The notes beneath the pieces are model-generated. The model was not told the DNA's origin. It made no database searches and was given only the letters and a program-made list of their open reading frames with translations. From Pseudomonadota bacterium (GTDB lineage Bacteria; Pseudomonadota; Alphaproteobacteria; Caulobacterales; Caulobacteraceae): 38,290 nt of DNA. This document shows positions 20,337 through 28,181 of this stretch, piece after piece. Numbering within the stretch: the stretch's first letter is position 1; each line of letters opens with the position of its first letter. Where the stretch lies: positions 1 through 38,290 of the forward strand of contig JAFEEA010000013.1 of assembly GCA_018241335.1 (NCBI GenBank), written 5' to 3'. The position numbers were made by a program, and so were the translations under genes.

Positions 20337-20945
20337 CTAGAGAAGTACAACCCGAAATGGGCTGATGGTCGCAAACAACTCCTCTCGGCTGCCGATCGAC
20401 AGCTTATTGTAGATTCGGCGAATGTGAGTTCTCACCGTCTCCAACGAGAGGCCCAGGTCCTCGGCCACCTTCTCCGCGCGATCGCCGCCGACCAGGCGCT
20501 TGGCGACACCGGCCTCAGACGCGGTCAGGCCGAAGACCTGTGTGAGATCGGCCCAGGCGGAAACCTGTCCGGAACCGGCCGGATAGAGGGTGAGGATCGC
20601 GGCCGGCGCGGCGTCGCGCGGATTGAGCACGTCTGCGCGCACAAGCAGGTGAGCGCCGTCCCCGGACCGGCAGGCCCAGACGCCTGACGCATCGCCGAGG
20701 CCCGACAGGAAATTCTGGAAGCTTGCGGCCTGTCCCTTGTCGGCGCAGGTGACCTTCGCCCCCGCGCGGGCGAGATGCCGACCGTCCTCGAGCATGGCCC
20801 CCGCGGCGCGGTTCTCCCAGAGGATGGTGAGATCCGGCGCCAGGATCACCAGGGCGACCGGATGCGCTTCCGCCCAGGCCCTAAGGTAGATCGCGTCGGC
20901 GCCCAACCGCTCAATAGCGGCCTCGCCTTCCGGAAATGCAGCCAT
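20337..20945 (-). CDS. LuxR-family regulator with N-terminal PAS-like domain
   Basis: Protein of 202 aa. The C-terminal 65 residues are a LuxR/GerE helix-turn-helix: FGLTASEAGVAKRLVGGDRAEKVAEDLGLSLETVRTHIRRIYNKL. The N-terminal part (AEAHPVALVILAPDLTILWENRAAGAML) looks like a degenerate PAS sensor domain. I prefer ATG 20945, preceded by AGGGGGCGGGA; the frame continues to a TTG at 20978 without a ribosome binding site. There is no receiver domain, so it is not a classical response regulator. Its target is unknown. A sequence GGTATTGGCGA in its promoter (minus strand, 20972-20982) recurs in the promoter of the AraC-type gene. Confidence 0.85.
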   Translation of the reverse strand: MAAFPEGEAAIERLGADAIYLRAWAEAHPVALVILAPDLTILWENRAAGAMLEDGRHLARAGAKVTCADKGQAASFQNFLSGLGDASGVWACRSGDGAHLLVRADVLNPRDAAPAAILTLYPAGSGQVSAWADLTQVFGLTASEAGVAKRLVGGDRAEKVAEDLGLSLETVRTHIRRIYNKLSIGSREELFATISPFRVVLL

Positions 20946-21011
20946 TCCCGCCCCCTGGGTATCGGCTTTTTTCGCCAATACCCAACTTCGGCGTGTGACG
21001 CAAAATCCCGA

Positions 21012-21512
21012 TCAACGCAAGGCCGTGCCGCTGCGGGGTTCCAGCCGCCGACCCATCCAGCGCTTGGGGCTCAGCCCGGTGTGGCGGCGGAACTGCCTGC
21101 AGAAGTGCGCCTGGTCCGCGAACCCGCAGAGCACGGCGATCTGGGACAGGGCTTCGCCGGTCTCCAGCATCATGGCCTTCGCCCGTTCCACGCGCCGGCG
21201 CAGCACATAGGCGTGAGGCGGATCGCCGAACGTCGTCCTGAAGGCCCTGGACAGATGGCTGACACTCAGGTCGACGAGCGCCGCCAGGGCCCGGTTGCTG
21301 ATGCCGCGTCCCAGGTTCTCGTCGATGTATCGCTGCAGCCGCTTGGCCTTCCATGGCGCAAGGCCATACTCGACCTGTGTTTCGAGAGAGGCGCGGCGCG
21401 TGAAGCCGCCCGCGTCCGGAGGCGCGAACCGCCGCGCCACCGCCCACCGGCATGAACCGCTTGCCCCGCCGTCTTCCTGTCTCAAAGCAACAGTCGATGG
21501 CTGTATTGTCAT
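21012..21512 (-). CDS. AraC-family transcriptional regulator
   Basis: Protein of 166 aa. The C-terminal 100 residues carry both helix-turn-helix motifs: ISNRALAALVDLSVSHLSRAFRTTFGDPPHAYVLRRRVERA and ALSQIAVLCGFADQAHFCRQFRRHTGLSP. The N-terminal 55 residues are short and lack a recognisable ligand-binding cupin, so this is a compact family member. It is upstream of the LuxR-type gene in the same direction and downstream of the epoxide hydrolase gene. Its promoter shares a 16-bp box (21590-21605) with the epoxide hydrolase and histidine kinase promoters. Confidence 0.88.
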   Translation of the reverse strand: MTIQPSTVALRQEDGGASGSCRWAVARRFAPPDAGGFTRRASLETQVEYGLAPWKAKRLQRYIDENLGRGISNRALAALVDLSVSHLSRAFRTTFGDPPHAYVLRRRVERAKAMMLETGEALSQIAVLCGFADQAHFCRQFRRHTGLSPKRWMGRRLEPRSGTALR

Positions 21513-21589
21513 GACCTTTCTCCCGGCCGTTGGACCTGTCGTATCGACGCCCGCGGCGGGAGATTTATTTGGTCGGCCCTGGTCGAGAC

Positions 21590-21605
21590 ATTGTACCTAG
21601 GTGTC
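21590..21605 (-). promoter_or_regulatory. Shared promoter box upstream of the AraC-type gene
   Basis: Minus strand GACACCTAGGTACAAT, 77 nt upstream of ATG 21512. TACAAT at its end is a good -10 hexamer and CTAG is a symmetric core. It matches the kinase promoter box at 13 of 16 positions. It lies in a 306-bp gap (21513-21818) that otherwise holds no supported gene. Confidence 0.55.
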
Positions 21606-21818
21606 GCCAATACCAAAGTATGAACCACTCAATCGGCAAATGTATTCTGCGTGAAGACCTTTATTGGTGCGGGCCCGCCCAGCTTGCCCGAGCGCGACGC
21701 GGCGTTTTGGGCGAAATGGTCGTCGACGCACGGGCGGACGCCGCCGCATGCGCGGAGCGTCCGTATGGGATAGGCCAATGGCCGGAGACCTCCTCGCCGG
21801 CCGCCCGGCCAGGCAACC

Positions 21819-23138
21819 TCAGGCCGACCGCAGCGAGCGGAAGGCGTCGCGGACTTCGCTCGTGAAGGCCGCCGGCTGCTCCCAGGCGGCGAAGTGGCCG
21901 CCTTTTTCCAGCCGATTGAAGTGGATCAGCTTGGGGAAGGCTTTCTCGGCCCAGCTGCGCGGCGAGGCATAGATTTCGTCGGGAAAGACGCTGACCGCCA
22001 CCGGGATGGTGACGTGCTTCGGCGCGAAGAAAGCCAGCTTGTTCTCCCAATAGAGCCGCGCCGAGGACACCGCGGTGTTGGTCAGCCAATAGAGGGTGAT
22101 GTTGTCCAGCACGTCCTCGCGCGTGAGGCCCTCGCTCTGGCCGTCGAACACCCGGCCGATCATGGCGGTGCTGCGGTCGTCATGGTCCAGCATCCAGGCG
22201 GCCAGGCCGATCGGGGAGTCGGCGATGCCGTACAGGGTCTGCGGCCGGTTCGCCATCTCCTGGGCGTATCCCAGCCCGTGCTTGTAGAAGAAGTCGATCT
22301 GGTCGTAGGCGCTGCGCTCGTCGGGAGCCAGGCCGGCCGGCGGGGCGCCGCCGGCCGCCAGGGCCGCGGCGATGTCGTCGGGTATGGTGGCGGGCATGTT
22401 GGTGTGGATGGCCAGGAGCTCGGGCGGCGCCTGCAGGGCCATCTGCTCGGAGATCGCATCGCCCCAGTCGCCGCCCTGGGCCACGAAACGAGTATAGCCC
22501 AGCCGTTTCATGAGTTGCGTCCAGGCGCGCGCGGTTCGCTCCGGGCCCCAGCCGGCGGCCGTCGGCTTGCCGGAGAAGCCGTAGCCGGGCAGCGAGGGGA
22601 TCACGAGGTCGAAGGCGTCCGAGGCGGCGCCGCCGTGCGCGGTTGGATTGGTCAGCGGATCGATGACCTTCAACTGCTCGATCACCGAGCCGGGCCAGCC
22701 GTGCGTGATGATCATCGGCAGGGCGTGCTCGTGCCGGGACCGGACGTGGATGAAGTGGATGTCCAGCCCGTCGATCTCGGTGACGAACTGCGGCCAGGCG
22801 TTCAGGCGCGCCTCGACTTTGCGCCAATCGTAGCCGGCCTGCCACGCCTGGGCGAGCGCGCGCATGGTCTCGAGCCGTACGCCCTGGGTCCGATCGTTCA
22901 CGGTCTCGCGTTCCGGCCAGCGGGTCGCCGCGATGCGCCTCCGCAGATCGACCAGGTCCGCCTCTGGCGCTTCGAACTTGAACGGCCGGATCGCGGCGGC
23001 TGGCGCCGCGCCGCCGCCGCTGGCGGACTCGACGAGGTCCAGCGTCTCGGCGCTAGCGGCGGTGGCCAGGCCGATGGCGCCGACGGTCGCCGACGCGGCT
23101 AGAAAGCTCCGGCGGGTGGATGACGATCCTGCTGACAT
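21819..23138 (-). CDS. Tat-exported epoxide hydrolase (EHN-type alpha/beta hydrolase)
   Basis: Protein of 439 aa. The N-terminus has a Tat motif (STRRSFLAASATVG) and a cleavable signal ending near ATAASA. The EHN domain follows (PFKFEAPEADLVDLRRRIAATRWPE), then an alpha/beta hydrolase fold with oxyanion motif HGWPGS, nucleophile in GGDWGD (Asp224) and catalytic His in KGGHFAAWEQP (His415). The family hydrolyses epoxides to diols; export to the periplasm is less usual for it. The protein lies in the neighbourhood of a two-component system and a second exported hydrolase. The physiological substrate is unknown. Confidence 0.9.
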   Translation of the reverse strand: MSAGSSSTRRSFLAASATVGAIGLATAASAETLDLVESASGGGAAPAAAIRPFKFEAPEADLVDLRRRIAATRWPERETVNDRTQGVRLETMRALAQAWQAGYDWRKVEARLNAWPQFVTEIDGLDIHFIHVRSRHEHALPMIITHGWPGSVIEQLKVIDPLTNPTAHGGAASDAFDLVIPSLPGYGFSGKPTAAGWGPERTARAWTQLMKRLGYTRFVAQGGDWGDAISEQMALQAPPELLAIHTNMPATIPDDIAAALAAGGAPPAGLAPDERSAYDQIDFFYKHGLGYAQEMANRPQTLYGIADSPIGLAAWMLDHDDRSTAMIGRVFDGQSEGLTREDVLDNITLYWLTNTAVSSARLYWENKLAFFAPKHVTIPVAVSVFPDEIYASPRSWAEKAFPKLIHFNRLEKGGHFAAWEQPAAFTSEVRDAFRSLRSA

Positions 23139-23219
23139 GACGCTTCTCCTGTGCCGCTTGTTGCGGCGGCTAGAGTTCAGGGCGATCCGGAAAGTATTCG
23201 GCCGTAGTTCGAGCCGGAG

Positions 23220-23235
23220 ATTGTACCAATGTCTC
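23220..23235 (-). promoter_or_regulatory. Shared promoter box upstream of the epoxide hydrolase gene
   Basis: Minus strand GAGACATTGGTACAAT, 81 nt upstream of ATG 23138. It ends with the same TACAAT as the AraC-type promoter and lies at nearly the same distance from its start codon. Confidence 0.52.
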
Positions 23236-23401
23236 GCCGACGCCCTGGTGTCGGTGGCGACCGCCTCTCCGCTTCACTTGGCGTCGCGTCGTCTTGGTAA
23301 GGATCGATCCAGACCAATACCAATGGGCAATGGCCGGTCACCGTTTCCGCCGCGACAATGCCGTAAGCGGGGACGGGAACGGCGATGAAGACGCGGTCAC
23401 C

Positions 23402-23417
23402 GACACCAAAGTACTAT
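23402..23417 (+). promoter_or_regulatory. Shared promoter box upstream of the histidine kinase gene
   Basis: GACACCAAAGTACTAT, 59 nt upstream of ATG 23477, with TACTAT as a plausible -10. Nine bases of it (ACCAAAGTA) also occur at 21612-21620. Confidence 0.5.
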
Positions 23418-23476
23418 CGACGGCGCGGCGGCTCGGTCGGTATCGTCGACGGCGGGGGTCGTGACGAGAGACAGGC

Positions 23477-25894
23477 ATGGAGATCGATCTCGGCCGTCTG
23501 CTCGACGCCTTGCCCGGCCTGGTCTGGACCGCGCGGCCAGATGGAGCCGCTGAATACATCGGTCGTCGCTGGCTCGAATTCACGGGGATGGACCACCGCG
23601 ACGCCGTCGGCCTGGGATGGCGGCGCGCCATTCATCCGGAAGACGCACCCAGGCTTCTGTCCCGCTGGGCCGAGATCATCGCCTCGGGCCGCGCGGGCGA
23701 GGTCGAGGCCCGTCTGCGTCGGCATGACGGGGTCTGGCGCTGGTTCCTCTTCCAGGCAAGCCCCCTGCCGGAGGCCTCTGGCGCGGTGCTGCGCTGGTGC
23801 GGGGTGAACACCGAGATCGAGGATCGGGTGCGCGCCGAGGCCGCCCTGAGGGACGAGGAGCGGCGCTTCGAATTCATCGTCGAGGGGCTGCCCGCGATGG
23901 TGACGTTGATGACGCCGCAGGGAGAACTCGAGAGCGGCAACCAGTACATGCTCGACTATTTCGGCCGCACGCTGGAGGAGTTGAAGGCGCGGCCTGTCGG
24001 CTTCAGCTTCCACCCGGAGGACCGCCCGCAGGTGATGTCGCGCTGGCGCCGCTCGGTCGAGACCGGCGAGCCCTACGACCATGAGGCCAGGTTGCGGCGG
24101 GGCGACGGGGTCTATCGATGGTTCCATACCCGCGGCTTCCCTTTGAGGGACGCCGAGGGCCGCATCCAGGTCTGGTATCTCCTTCAGGAAGACATCGACC
24201 AGCGGCGGCGCGCCGAGGCGTGGCTGGCGGGCGAGAAGCAGTTGCTGGAACAGGTGGCGCTGGGCCTGCCCCTGTCGACGGTGCTCGACGACCTCTCCGA
24301 TCTGGTCGAGCGTCTGGCGCCCGGGTGCTACTGCAGCATCCTCCTGGTCGACGAAGGCGGCGACCGGTTCAAGGTTGGCGCGGGCCCCAGCTTGCCGCCC
24401 CGCTACAACGCCATTCTCGACGGCAAGGCCATCGACCCGCGCTACGGCCCCTGCTCCCTGGCCGTCGTCGAGAAAGTCCCGGTCATCACCGACGATCTCG
24501 CCCGCGATCCGCGCTGGGAGGGGTCGGTCTGGCCGGGCCTGATGGCCGAATATGGCCTCGCCTCCTGCTGGTCGATGCCCATCCTCTCGGGCGCGCGGGA
24601 TGTTCTCGGGATCTTCGCCATCTATCGGCACGAGCCCGAGGGCCCCACGGCGGAGGAGCAGGAGCTCATCGACCGCTTCACCAAGATCGCCGGCATCGCC
24701 ATCGGGCGGGCCCGGGCGGACGCCGCCCTGAAGGCGGGCGAGGCCGAGCTTCGGCAGGCCTATCGACACCTCACCGAGGCCCAGAGGCTAAGCCAGACCG
24801 GCAGCTTCAGATGGGACCTGACGGCCGACACTCACGACTGGTCCGACGAGACGTACCGCATCTGGGAAGTGGACCCCGGAACGGCGATCACCACGCAGAT
24901 GCTGCTTGACGCCATCCATCCCGACGATCTGTCGGCGACGGAGGCGGTTGTCTCCCGCGCCGCCCAGGGCGAGGACTTCGAACAAGTCTTCCGCATCGTG
25001 ACCGCCGGCGGGGCGATGAAGCATGTCCACGCCGTCGGTCATCTCACCGAGCCGGCGGCGGGACGGCCCGTGTTCTTCGGCGCCATCCAGGACGTCACCG
25101 AGCGCAAGACCGCCGAGGAAGCGCTCAACCGCGCCAGCGCGGAACTGGCCCATGTGGCGCGGGTGACGGCGCTGGGCGCGCTGACCGCCTCCATCGCCCA
25201 CGAGGTCAACCAGCCGCTGGCGGGCATCATCACCAACGCCAGCACGTGCCTGCGCATGCTGGCGGCCGATCCGCCGAATCTCGACGGAGCTCGTGCGACG
25301 GCCCAGCGCACCATCCGTGACGGCAATCGGGCCTCTGAAGTGATCCAGCGCCTGCGCGCCCTCTTCGCGCGCCGGGCGCCGGCCATGGAGCCGATGGACC
25401 TGAACGCCGCCGCCCGAGAGGTGCTTGCCCTGTCGTCGGGCGACCTGCAGCGGCGACGGGTCATCGTCCGCGTCGACTTCGCCGACGACCTGCCGCCGAT
25501 CCGGGGCGATCGCGTCCAGCTTCAGCAGGTGATCCTGAACCTGATCCTGAACGCGGCCGACGCCATGGCGACCGTCGAAGACCGCCCCCGCGATCTGTGG
25601 ATATCCACGGCTCGGGCTGAGCCCGATCTTGTTGCGCTGAGCGTGCGGGACGTGGGCGCGGGGATCGCGCCGGAGGCTGTCGGCCGTCTGTTCGACGCCT
25701 TCTACACCACCAAGGCGGACGGCATGGGCATCGGCCTGTCGATCAGCCGTTCGATCGTCCAGGCGCACGAGGGCCGCATCTGGGCGGCGCCCAACGATGG
25801 CCCGGGGATGACTTTCTCGTTCGCCGTCCCCAGCGGGCTCGAACCCGCCGAGGCGGCGCCGGGGCCGCCTAACTCAGTGCCAAGGGAAGCGTAG
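23477..25894 (+). CDS. Soluble PAS-PAS-GAF-PAS sensor histidine kinase
   Basis: Protein of 805 aa with no signal peptide or membrane segment, so the sensor is cytoplasmic. Order: PAS with PAC (1-120, DALPGLVWTARPDGAAEYIG), PAS with PAC (about 125-250), GAF (about 255-415, YCSILLVDEGGDRFKVGAGPSLP), a third PAS-like region (about 430-550), and a HisKA/HATPase core. The phosphorylated His is in ASIAHEVNQPLAGIITNAS (H575), the N box is NLILNAADAM, then DVGAGI and FYTTKADGMGIGLSISRSIV. The HEVNQPLA type is that of FixL/TodS-like kinases. The stop is immediately followed by the receiver-protein start. No haem-binding His or other ligand was identified, so the signal is unknown. Confidence 0.9.
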   Translation: MEIDLGRLLDALPGLVWTARPDGAAEYIGRRWLEFTGMDHRDAVGLGWRRAIHPEDAPRLLSRWAEIIASGRAGEVEARLRRHDGVWRWFLFQASPLPEASGAVLRWCGVNTEIEDRVRAEAALRDEERRFEFIVEGLPAMVTLMTPQGELESGNQYMLDYFGRTLEELKARPVGFSFHPEDRPQVMSRWRRSVETGEPYDHEARLRRGDGVYRWFHTRGFPLRDAEGRIQVWYLLQEDIDQRRRAEAWLAGEKQLLEQVALGLPLSTVLDDLSDLVERLAPGCYCSILLVDEGGDRFKVGAGPSLPPRYNAILDGKAIDPRYGPCSLAVVEKVPVITDDLARDPRWEGSVWPGLMAEYGLASCWSMPILSGARDVLGIFAIYRHEPEGPTAEEQELIDRFTKIAGIAIGRARADAALKAGEAELRQAYRHLTEAQRLSQTGSFRWDLTADTHDWSDETYRIWEVDPGTAITTQMLLDAIHPDDLSATEAVVSRAAQGEDFEQVFRIVTAGGAMKHVHAVGHLTEPAAGRPVFFGAIQDVTERKTAEEALNRASAELAHVARVTALGALTASIAHEVNQPLAGIITNASTCLRMLAADPPNLDGARATAQRTIRDGNRASEVIQRLRALFARRAPAMEPMDLNAAAREVLALSSGDLQRRRVIVRVDFADDLPPIRGDRVQLQQVILNLILNAADAMATVEDRPRDLWISTARAEPDLVALSVRDVGAGIAPEAVGRLFDAFYTTKADGMGIGLSISRSIVQAHEGRIWAAPNDGPGMTFSFAVPSGLEPAEAAPGPPNSVPREA

Positions 25895-26266
25895 ATGCAG
25901 AGGCGCAGGCTCGTGTCGGTGGTGGACGACGACCAGTCCGTGCGCGAGTCGTTGCCTGATCTGCTGCGGTCGTTCGGCCTGGAGGTGCGGCCCTTCGCCT
26001 CCGCCGAGGAGTTCCTGGCCTCGGAGACCCTGGGACAGACCGGATGCCTCGTCCTCGATGTGGCCATGCCCGGCATGTCCGGCCTCGAACTTCAGCTGGA
26101 GCTCGGACGTCGGCGGCACGACATCCCCATCGTCTTCATCACCGCCCATTCCATCGAGCGCGTCCGCCCTCGCGTGCTGGAGCGCGGCGCTGTCGCCTGC
26201 CTGTTCAAACCCTTCAGTGAGAAGGGGATTCTCGAAGCGGTCAGCGCGGCGCTGGGAACGGCCTGA
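25895..26266 (+). CDS. Single-domain response regulator (receiver only)
   Basis: Protein of 123 aa made of one receiver domain: acidic pocket VVDDDQ (residues 11-13), phospho-acceptor LVLDVAMPG (Asp55), Thr in FITAH (83) and Lys105 in LFKPF. There is no output domain. The ATG follows directly on the kinase stop codon (TAG ATG), so the two are co-transcribed. It may compete with the FixJ-type regulator for phosphate or act as a relay or phosphate sink, as receiver-only proteins often do. Confidence 0.9.
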   Translation: MQRRRLVSVVDDDQSVRESLPDLLRSFGLEVRPFASAEEFLASETLGQTGCLVLDVAMPGMSGLELQLELGRRRHDIPIVFITAHSIERVRPRVLERGAVACLFKPFSEKGILEAVSAALGTA

Positions 26267-26336
26267 GTTTCCGGTGCAATCCTGCATCGGTGGAGCTAAA
26301 CTGAAGCGCGAGCATCCCCAAAAGAGATGGCCGGCC

Positions 26337-26981
26337 ATGGCCGAGGCGTCCCCCGCCACTTTCCCCCCGACCGTCTTCGTCGTCGACGACGACGTCTCCG
26401 TGCGCGAGTCCCTGGAAGCCCTGATCCAGGCGTCGGGCTGGCGCGCCCTGACCTTCGACACCGCGCGCGCCTTCCTGGCCTTTCCGCCGCCGCCGGGGCC
26501 GAGCTGCCTGGTCCTCGACGTCGGGCTTCCGGACCTCAACGGGCTGGACCTCCAGGCGATGATCGCGGCCGATCGGAGCGAAATGCCGATCCTGTTCATC
26601 ACCGGCTACGGCGATGTGCCGATGACCGTACGGGCCATGAAGGCCGGGGCCGTGGAGTTCCTGACCAAGCCGTTCGGCGAGGCGGTGCTGCTGGACGCCA
26701 TAGAGTCGGCCCTCGAACGCAGTCGCTCAGCCGTCGGGGAAAAGGCCGCCCTGCGCACGCTCGATGACCGCTATGCGACCCTCAGCCGGCGCGAACGCGA
26801 GGTCATGGCCCTGGTGGTCACTGGCCTTCTCAACAAGCAGGTGGCCGGCGAACTCGGCATCAGCGAGATCACGGTGAAGGCGCACCGCGGCAGAGTCATG
26901 GAAAAGATGCAGGTCCGCTCCCTCGCCGACCTGGTCAAGGTCAGCCAGAAGATCGCCGCCGCCCCGCCGGGAAACGCCTGA
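26337..26981 (+). CDS. FixJ-type response regulator (receiver plus LuxR HTH)
   Basis: Protein of 214 aa. The receiver has VVDDDVSVRESL (D17-D19), LVLDVGLPDLNG (Asp61), FITGYGDVPMTVRAMKAGAVEFLTKPF, and the output is a LuxR-type helix-turn-helix (LSRREREVMALVVTGLLNKQVAGELGISEITVKAHRGRVMEKM). The wording is typical of the FixJ/TodT/StyR group, pairing with kinases such as the one upstream. I chose ATG 26337; the frame is open further upstream but that part overlaps the receiver gene. The nearby shared promoter boxes are candidate targets of this regulator. Confidence 0.9.
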   Translation: MAEASPATFPPTVFVVDDDVSVRESLEALIQASGWRALTFDTARAFLAFPPPPGPSCLVLDVGLPDLNGLDLQAMIAADRSEMPILFITGYGDVPMTVRAMKAGAVEFLTKPFGEAVLLDAIESALERSRSAVGEKAALRTLDDRYATLSRREREVMALVVTGLLNKQVAGELGISEITVKAHRGRVMEKMQVRSLADLVKVSQKIAAAPPGNA

Positions 26982-27122
26982 GCCCTCGCCGGACGGCCGA
27001 CCGTCGCGGGGCGCGCCGACCAACACCTTCGTCCACTAGATCGCCGCGCGCCAAGACGGTTGGATCGCCGCCGGTCGCCGCGCGCGCCGCACGTTCGCCC
27101 CTCGGGCCCAGGAGTACACGTC

Positions 27123-28181
27123 ATGAGCCGTCCCGACGTCATCGACCGACCTCGCCGCCGCCTGGTCGGCGCCGCCGCCCTGACCTTCGCTGCCGCTCCC
27201 TTCGCCGCCGCCGGAAAAGCCTTCGCCCAGGCCGCCGCCGACGATCGGACCCTGACGCCCGCGCCTGTCGATCACATCGCCTTCGCTTCGCTGCGGCAGG
27301 CGGACGCCGGCCCGCTCAACATCGCCTACGCCGAGGCCGGCCCGGCGGACGGGCCGGCCGTGATCCTGCTGCACGGCTGGCCCTATGACATCCACAGCTA
27401 CGTCGACGTCGCGCCCATGCTGGCCGGCCAGGGATTTCGGGTGATCGTTCCTTATCTGCGGGGGTTCGGTCCCACGCGCTTTCTCTCCGCCGAGACCGTT
27501 CGCAACGGCCAGCAGTCGGCCATCGCGCTCGACATCATCAACCTGATGGACGCCCTCGGGATCCACCGGGCGGTGGTCGCCGGCTACGACTGGGGCGCGC
27601 GCACCGCCGACATTCTGGCCGCCCTCTGGCCCGAGCGGTGCCGGGCGCTGGTCTCGGTGAGCGGCTATCTGGTCGTCAACCTCGAGGCCAACAAGCAGCC
27701 CCTGTCGCCGCAGGCGGAACTGGGCTGGTGGTACCAGTACTACTTCGCCACCGAGCGCGGCCGCCTGGGGTACGAGCGCAACCGTCGCGACTTCGCTCGC
27801 CTGATCTGGAGGATCGCCTCGCCCAACTGGGCCTTCGACGACGCCACCTTCGAACGCACCGCGCCGGCGTTCGACAATCCCGACCACGTGGCGATCGTTA
27901 TCCACAACTATCGTTGGCGACAGAGCCTGGCGGACGGAGAGCGCGCCTATGACGCCCTCGAAGCCCGGCTCCAGGCCTCGCCGGCCATCGCCACGCCGAC
28001 CCTCACCATCGGCAGCGACTTCGACGGCGCCGCGGCGGATGGCGCGCCCTACGCCAGGCGCTTCACCGGACCTTATGCGCACTGGCGCCTGCGCGGCATC
28101 GGCCACAACGTGCCGCAGGAAGCCCCGCGCGCCTTCGCCGACGCCGTCGTCGCGGCGGCCGCGCTGGCGCCCAAGGCCTGA
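27123..28181 (+). CDS. Tat-exported alpha/beta hydrolase (epoxide-hydrolase/haloalkane-dehalogenase-like)
   Basis: Protein of 352 aa. The N-terminus has a basic RPRRRLVGAAAL stretch and a signal region ending near AFAQA, compatible with Tat export. The hydrolase core shows ILLHGWPYDIHSY, nucleophile VVAGYDWGARTAD (Asp156) and a C-terminal GIGHNVPQEAP with the catalytic His. An Asp nucleophile suggests epoxide hydrolase or dehalogenase-like chemistry. It lies 141 bp after the FixJ-type regulator on the same strand and converges with atzF. With the gene at 21819-23138 it makes a pair of exported hydrolases around the two-component system. Confidence 0.87.
   Translation: MSRPDVIDRPRRRLVGAAALTFAAAPFAAAGKAFAQAAADDRTLTPAPVDHIAFASLRQADAGPLNIAYAEAGPADGPAVILLHGWPYDIHSYVDVAPMLAGQGFRVIVPYLRGFGPTRFLSAETVRNGQQSAIALDIINLMDALGIHRAVVAGYDWGARTADILAALWPERCRALVSVSGYLVVNLEANKQPLSPQAELGWWYQYYFATERGRLGYERNRRDFARLIWRIASPNWAFDDATFERTAPAFDNPDHVAIVIHNYRWRQSLADGERAYDALEARLQASPAIATPTLTIGSDFDGAAADGAPYARRFTGPYAHWRLRGIGHNVPQEAPRAFADAVVAAAALAPKA

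Follow-up and report, generated by a model that had tools for sequence, protein, structure and literature searches.

Boxes before an epoxide hydrolase gene and its neighbours in a Caulobacteraceae genome resemble operators of the FixJ-type regulator encoded next door

In a contig of the caulobacterial assembly GCA_018241335.1 (JAFEEA010000013.1), a 16-bp box is shared by an AraC-type gene, an epoxide hydrolase gene and a histidine kinase gene, which raises the question of what the box is and which protein reads it. The window, that is the whole stretch of DNA that was analysed, comprises 38,290 nucleotides. The initial annotation described a promoter box ending in -10-like hexamers and suggested one regulon, possibly driven by a FixJ-type regulator. 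That interpretation as a whole is partly supported: judged from sequence, the boxes look like real control sites rather than core promoters, and they resemble docking sites for the FixJ-type regulator encoded next door. In other soil bacteria, too, such sites stand before detoxification genes. The best explanation, with a probability of roughly 0.83, is that each box serves a NarL/FixJ-type response regulator as a promoter-proximal operator; this regulator is most probably the FixJ-type protein encoded by the kinase/receiver/FixJ operon at 23477-26981.

Sites and genes of the window

The boxes of the AraC-type gene (GACACCTAGGTACAAT, 21590-21605, minus strand), the epoxide hydrolase gene (GAGACATTGGTACAAT, 23220-23235, minus strand) and the histidine kinase (GACACCAAAGTACTAT, 23402-23417, plus strand) lie where they were first placed, 77, 81 and 59 nt from the start codons, and each is directed at its own gene. 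With up to three mismatches, the first box has three matches in the window, where shuffled sequence gives an expectation of 0.03, and GASACNNNNGTACWAT occurs exactly three times in the 4.4-Mb genome, always in the window, with no match for the reversed control. When the window is scored with a matrix of the proximal box that was derived entirely from sites elsewhere, 21588-21606 comes first (27.3 bits), followed by 23401-23419 (20.3), 27021-27039 (18.0), 23218-23236 (16.0) and 23315-23333 (15.0); the sixth-best score is 9.9 bits, with 0.35 expected. The match counts in the genome and the window and this ranking rule out a chance origin. All three boxes of the original set are therefore real, but the set was incomplete, as the matrix adds boxes at 27022-27037 and 23316-23331.

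The best site of the window is the proximal dyad of the araC gene, CGACACC-TA-GGTACAA(T) on the minus strand at 21588-21606. It is accompanied by an upstream dyad, TCATACT-TT-GGTATTG (21608-21623, minus strand, 18.7 bits), whose centre lies 17 bp away, and the composite element scores 46.4 bits. A candidate -10 hexamer read from the sequence, TAAATC (21562-21567, minus strand), follows 23 nt past the box end, at the peak found among 79 related sites. The predicted target is a short AraC-type regulator of 166 aa with only a helix-turn-helix domain (21012-21512, minus strand; Pfam HTH_18, 3.5e-24). The epoxide hydrolase-type alpha/beta hydrolase (21819-23138, minus strand; EHN 4.3e-38, Abhydrolase_1 3.8e-11), with an N-terminal RR motif suggestive of a Tat signal, is preceded on the same strand by the proximal dyad at 23218-23236 and an upstream dyad, CGACACC-AG-GGCGTCG (23238-23253), with a composite score of 24.2 bits over 23218-23253. 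Its candidate -10, read as TACTTT (23191-23196, minus strand), lies 24 nt past the box end, one base off the peak.

The kinase operon has its operator dyad at 23401-23419 (plus strand), with no clear upstream dyad and a composite score of just 5.2 bits; the candidate -10, read as TATCGT (23441-23446, plus strand), is again 24 nt past the box end and one base off the peak. The kinase promoters of three relatives (L052, L053, L054) have the same look, and the distance from box to ATG stays at 58-60 nt in all four promoters, in line with the proposed site before the regulator's own kinase. A fifth, weaker site (23315-23333, plus strand, with AATACCAATGGGCAAT at 23316-23331; 0.04 expected in the window at its score) also faces the kinase, 145 nt before the ATG. 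The operon encodes a PAS/GAF histidine kinase of 805 aa (23477-25894, plus strand; PAS_3, GAF, HisKA, HATPase_c), a single-domain response regulator (25895-26266, plus strand; Response_reg 1.4e-23) and the FixJ-type response regulator proposed as binder (26337-26981, plus strand). Scored in the frame 26058-26981, the last has the NarL/FixJ-type architecture of a receiver and a GerE (LuxR) helix-turn-helix, with Response_reg at 84.7 bits (cut-off 30.2) and GerE at 73.8 (23.5). The fourth operator, CCAACACCTTCGTCCACTAG (27021-27039, plus strand, with AACACCTTCGTCCACT at 27022-27037), lies 85 nt before a second alpha/beta hydrolase and predicted target (27123-28181, plus strand; Abhydrolase_1 2.2e-19). 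The orthologue of this hydrolase in Rhizobium johnstonii (62%) carries the related sequence CCAATACCTTCGTCCACTAG 97 nt before its start.

The element and its occurrence

The boxes are part of a larger element that usually consists of two NarL-style 7-2-7 dyads with one base between them, ACNWWGGTRTCG-S-CGAYACCWWNGTNCAAT. Its anatomy was derived from 84 sites with at most three mismatches, obtained by searching 45 loci and reduced to 79 by removing near-duplicates (identity of 80% or more over 110 nt with a site retained). The dyad consensus is CGAYACC-WW-GGTRTCG, two heptamers in inverted orientation separated by two bases, with exact CGAYACC in 70 of the 79 sites and WW in 76, where positions 0-24 belonged to the search pattern (WW in some searches only). 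The upstream AC-N-WW, which was not part of that pattern, is present in 64 of the 79. Outside the 25 searched positions, Y at -9, AC at -5/-4, WW at -2/-1 and G at +26 are conserved, as is a -10-like (T/C)AT-N-TT at +47 to +52. Because these positions lie outside those searched, the flanking conservation is free of selection, and it points to an element of two 7-2-7 dyads, one base apart and 17 bp between centres, the second ending in GGTNCAAT. Conservation in dyads reaches about 34 bp upstream from the end of the box, and triple arrays at 17-bp steps occur at two loci (L240, L242), with a similar array seen by eye at a third (L019).

The same set of sites corrects the original description of the box. 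The second base of the supposed terminal hexamer is C in 44 sites, G in 19, A in 8 and T in 8, and a -10-like signal is found instead 23 nt downstream, where NANNNT occurs in 28% of the 79 sites against at most 8% at every other offset from 5 to 49. If this hexamer is taken to span -12 to -7, the centres of the proximal and distal dyads fall at about -43.5 and -60.5, respectively. The supposed promoter box is thus better described as an operator abutting the -35 region, with a separate -10 downstream. A sigma-54 promoter was rejected by eye, as there is no GC at -12. In three loci, divergent OsmC and TonB-receptor genes share a 35-bp palindrome that consists of two back-to-back boxes separated by three bases (L052 14411-14445, L054 5408-5442 and, alike, L053 13240-13274).

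The 16-bp pattern alone is close to background in 199 genomes of the family, with matches in 12 genomes and beside a kinase only in G159, where the box stands 60 nt upstream of a kinase gene whose product shares 50% identity with that of the window. Kinase orthologues (E<=1e-120) are present in five of 249 family genomes, our own included. A motif search in relatives, which the initial annotation had proposed beforehand, did find related sites around orthologous kinase-FixJ operons: the other four genomes with a kinase orthologue (G168, G286, G137, G159) have many related sites nearby, with back-to-back divergent pairs and the extended element. With at most three mismatches, the 25-mer GGTRTCGSCGAYACCWWRGTNCAAT has 14 copies in G286, 17 in G159, 6 in G137 and 2 in our own genome, and none in G070, G168 or G009; its reversed control has none in all seven. 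In G286, G159 and G137, almost every copy belongs to a single region of 20-40 kb that surrounds the orthologous kinase-FixJ operon (on two contigs in G286). These three are the only genomes among the 249 with at least three sites, and they make up three of the five with a kinase orthologue (Fisher 4e-6, relatedness ignored). One or two matches occur in 14 further family genomes besides these three and our own (G000), against two genomes for the reversed control. Since all 15 such sites lie within open frames of at least 263 codons (best matrix score of their loci 1.9-28.1 bits), they are read as coding background, and single matches are not taken as evidence.

Beyond the family, an exact scan with GGTRTCGSCGAYACCNNRGTNCAAT of about 85,000 genomes (257 billion bases) returned only 26 stretches, where about 0.5 would be expected by our own estimate from 40 bits and 2 x 257 Gb, so that the operator appears specific enough to map the regulon from sequence. 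The 26 stretches come from Caulobacter, Phenylobacterium, Rhizobium (R. johnstonii 3841 included), Mesorhizobium, Bradyrhizobium and other Alphaproteobacteria, and from Acidobacteriaceae, and many precede orthologues of window genes or other detoxification genes. At six Rhizobium loci (L100, L101, L106, L108, L110, L112) a site is found 60-66 nt before orthologues of the window hydrolase (58-73%); the hydrolase orthologues in G009, G003 and G025 are without a site. In a sample of the class too sparse for statistics (385 genomes), 6 have the FixJ-type protein and 7 the pattern. One Acidobacteriaceae genome (G677:C55; L237, L238) has three members of the FixJ clade described below as well as an exact operator, a combination that suggests transfer between phyla.

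The candidate binder

The comparative evidence makes the FixJ-type regulator the likely binder, in line with the earlier suggestion of one regulon possibly driven by it. Operator clusters contain or adjoin relatives of at least 58% identity in G669 (two), G676, G673, G672, G670 and G677, and a relative of 47% identity in G565; in most genomes read, a clade member is found in this position. A tree was built from 48 FixJ-type proteins, labelled by hand beforehand for an operator of at least 20 bits within 10 kb (one short row was left out, and the G532 protein, on a 3.7-kb contig, carries no label). All 19 operator-linked proteins fall into one clade of 22 (SH-aLRT 99), which holds 3 unlinked proteins and leaves 25 of 28 unlinked paralogues outside; the labels change 4 times on the tree, compared with 15.1 in shuffles, none of 500 being as low. 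In the recognition helix, all 22 clade members have KAHRG, as does 1 of 27 others; two more of these others have KAHR followed by a different fifth residue. The alanine presumably sits at the position of the base-contacting valine of NarL. A second FixJ-type protein of our own genome (G000:C421; L150 7268-7882), 53-54% identical, has KVHR instead of KAHRG, and no operator was found within the 8 kb read around it.

Several genomes count against this assignment. G168, whose FixJ is 63% identical, has only diverged sites ending in CAAA, and G605 (64%) has a single weak site (10.3 bits) near its FixJ. G678 holds an exact site and no FixJ at E<=1e-40, and in G070 an array stands beside a hydrolase gene while the FixJs are only 49-50% identical and on other contigs. 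R. johnstonii 3841 has clear sites and an operator-linked FixJ that is only 42% identical, yet inside the clade. These searches for FixJ and AraC relatives covered the operator genomes apart from that of L116.

The position of the operator also bears on the effect of binding. As the proximal dyad abuts the -35 region, the protein is most likely a class II activator. A dimer bound there could also block polymerase, and where a genome has several clade members (two in G669, three in G677) paralogous proteins could share the operator; that the same protein mainly represses, or that paralogues share its sites, is nevertheless improbable, given that the spacing agrees with known activating NarL and FixJ sites and that a clade member adjoins or lies within the operator cluster in most genomes read. 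More doubtful still is binding of the asymmetric box by the short AraC-type protein as a monomer, in the manner of MarA or SoxS at the marbox, with activation of the regulon and of its own gene. The box is directional, its ACAC-N7-CAAT resembles the marbox GCAC-N7-YAAA, and the best site of the window belongs to the AraC gene. The element, on the other hand, consists of tandem dyads whose upstream halves are conserved beyond the search pattern, and the protein does not occur wherever the boxes do: no AraC relative at E<=1e-15 is present in G286, despite its 14 sites, or in the site-bearing G677, and elsewhere relatives are near operators only in G605 and G137. Given its absence from G286, the AraC-type protein is more plausibly a target than the binder, which fits G137, where the AraC gene stands behind an FMN reductase gene carrying an operator. 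The LuxR-type gene at 20337-20945 was rejected as binder as well, having no tblastn match beyond its own genome in the operator loci examined. Least probable of all is that the boxes are core promoters whose TACAAT or TACTAT ends serve a housekeeping or alternative sigma factor as -10 hexamers: TACAAT is like TATAAT and 59-81 nt to the starts would suit a leader, but an A in second place is rare among the relatives, a distinct -10-like signal lies downstream, and the dyads reach far upstream of the box in arrays of up to three.

Probable role and relation to known systems

Under operator control by the FixJ-type protein, a dimer, presumably in its phosphorylated form, would bind the inverted heptamers, at most targets with a second dyad one base further upstream and at some promoters with three. 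Within the window, activation would extend to the genes of the epoxide hydrolase, the AraC-type protein and the second hydrolase and, through the single-dyad promoter, to the regulator's own kinase operon. The signal may be reactive electrophiles, aldehydes or oxidants.

The probable role is suggested by the genes downstream of sites of at least 25 bits, 114 frames that were assigned mechanically and include some spurious ones from mirror-strand sites. The largest groups are epoxide hydrolases (14), short-chain dehydrogenases (SDR; 10, and a second SDR group of 5), enoyl-CoA hydratase-like proteins (9), DJ-1 proteins (7) and HisKA_2 kinases (6). TonB receptors, glyoxalases and alpha/beta hydrolases follow with 4 each, and OsmC, metallo-beta-lactamase-fold and FMN reductase proteins with 3 each. 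Also represented are nitronate monooxygenase, aldehyde dehydrogenase, cytochrome P460, MOSC-reductase, ChrR cupin and thioredoxin-like genes; in L051 the thioredoxin-like gene and in L235 the nitronate monooxygenase gene come after weaker or mirrored sites. In R. johnstonii 3841, whose FixJ-like gene lies at L239 2989-3546, the genes preceded by sites include those of an epoxide hydrolase, a short-chain dehydrogenase and a DJ-1 family protein. Across species, these targets suggest a defence against reactive electrophiles, aldehydes and oxidants. In B. japonicum, the gene bll3418 for a putative epoxide hydrolase 1 is reported to be induced by H2O2 (PMC3420878).

The closest solved structure to the FixJ-type protein is 1yio (E 1e-59, compared with 1.1e-44 for FixJ, 5xso), which we take to be StyR of styrene catabolism, in the TodT group. 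The sty box, ATAAACC-AT-GGTTTAT, shares the inner ACC-WW-GGT of the operators described here and differs in the outer bases; StyR also has KVHR rather than KAHRG in its recognition helix and serves a catabolic operon rather than a dispersed detoxification regulon. The heptamer consensus of NarL differs from that of these operators, and so do its targets and kinase. The NarL promoters of E. coli (PMC7419079) have a single 7-2-7 site just upstream of -35 at yeaR and sites at -44.5 and -77.5 at ogt; the 2-bp spacing of inverted heptamers, the site abutting -35 near -44 and the tandem arrangement are alike, whereas the dyads here are 17 bp apart and the ogt sites 33 bp. With FixLJ of Sinorhizobium, Bradyrhizobium and Caulobacter the system shares the response-regulator architecture and a FixL-like kinase core. 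According to PMC4999443, FixJ covers -69/-44 and -57/-31 at fixK, likewise two binding regions in the same promoter zone, and its sites are said to have no common consensus. The operator here is unlike TAAGTAATTTCCCTTA, and the targets are not fixK/nif. The regulator scores 200.7 bits against FixJ proper (NF006900, NCBIfam cut-off 255) and the kinase 256.9 bits against FixL proper (NF041777, cut-off 850), both below the cut-off.

A search of the openly licensed literature found no paper linking a FixJ-type regulator with these hydrolases and none describing the operator or regulon. The chances appear even that the locus represents an undescribed FixJ-type two-component regulon for electrophile and oxidant detoxification, with a near-invariant 7-2-7 dyad-array operator at 17-bp steps, an island of 20-40 kb in which most promoters bear it, a patchy distribution over Alphaproteobacteria into Acidobacteria and a recognition-helix alanine marking specificity. 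An orphan FixJ-type system gains a predicted operator, a target list and a probable role. The predictions are directly testable in a tractable named strain, R. johnstonii 3841, and in a large regulator family whose operators are hard to predict, the invariant alanine provides a rule for specificity.

Some further features of the locus and its relatives may be mentioned. A hairpin, TGGGTATCGGC-TTTTTTC-GCCAATACCCA (20956-20984), lies upstream of the LuxR-type gene (minus strand) and contains the same GGTATYGG half-sites in inverted order; it could be a terminator, a leader or a variant operator. The single-domain receiver between kinase and FixJ is present in 11 of 11 aligned operons and is placed like a FixT-style feedback protein; in the alignment it is without the 4-Cys motif of Caulobacter FixT (PMC7078487). 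The regulon also has a recurrent small kinase of the HisKA_2 type, about 210 aa long and lacking a sensor domain, in L052, L053, L054, L104, L115 and L228. Two orthologues of the operon's kinase (L052 7522-12126, L054 7204-11943) are enlarged by repeated PAS-like units, to 1,465 and 1,335 aa from the ATG, respectively, compared with 805 in the window.
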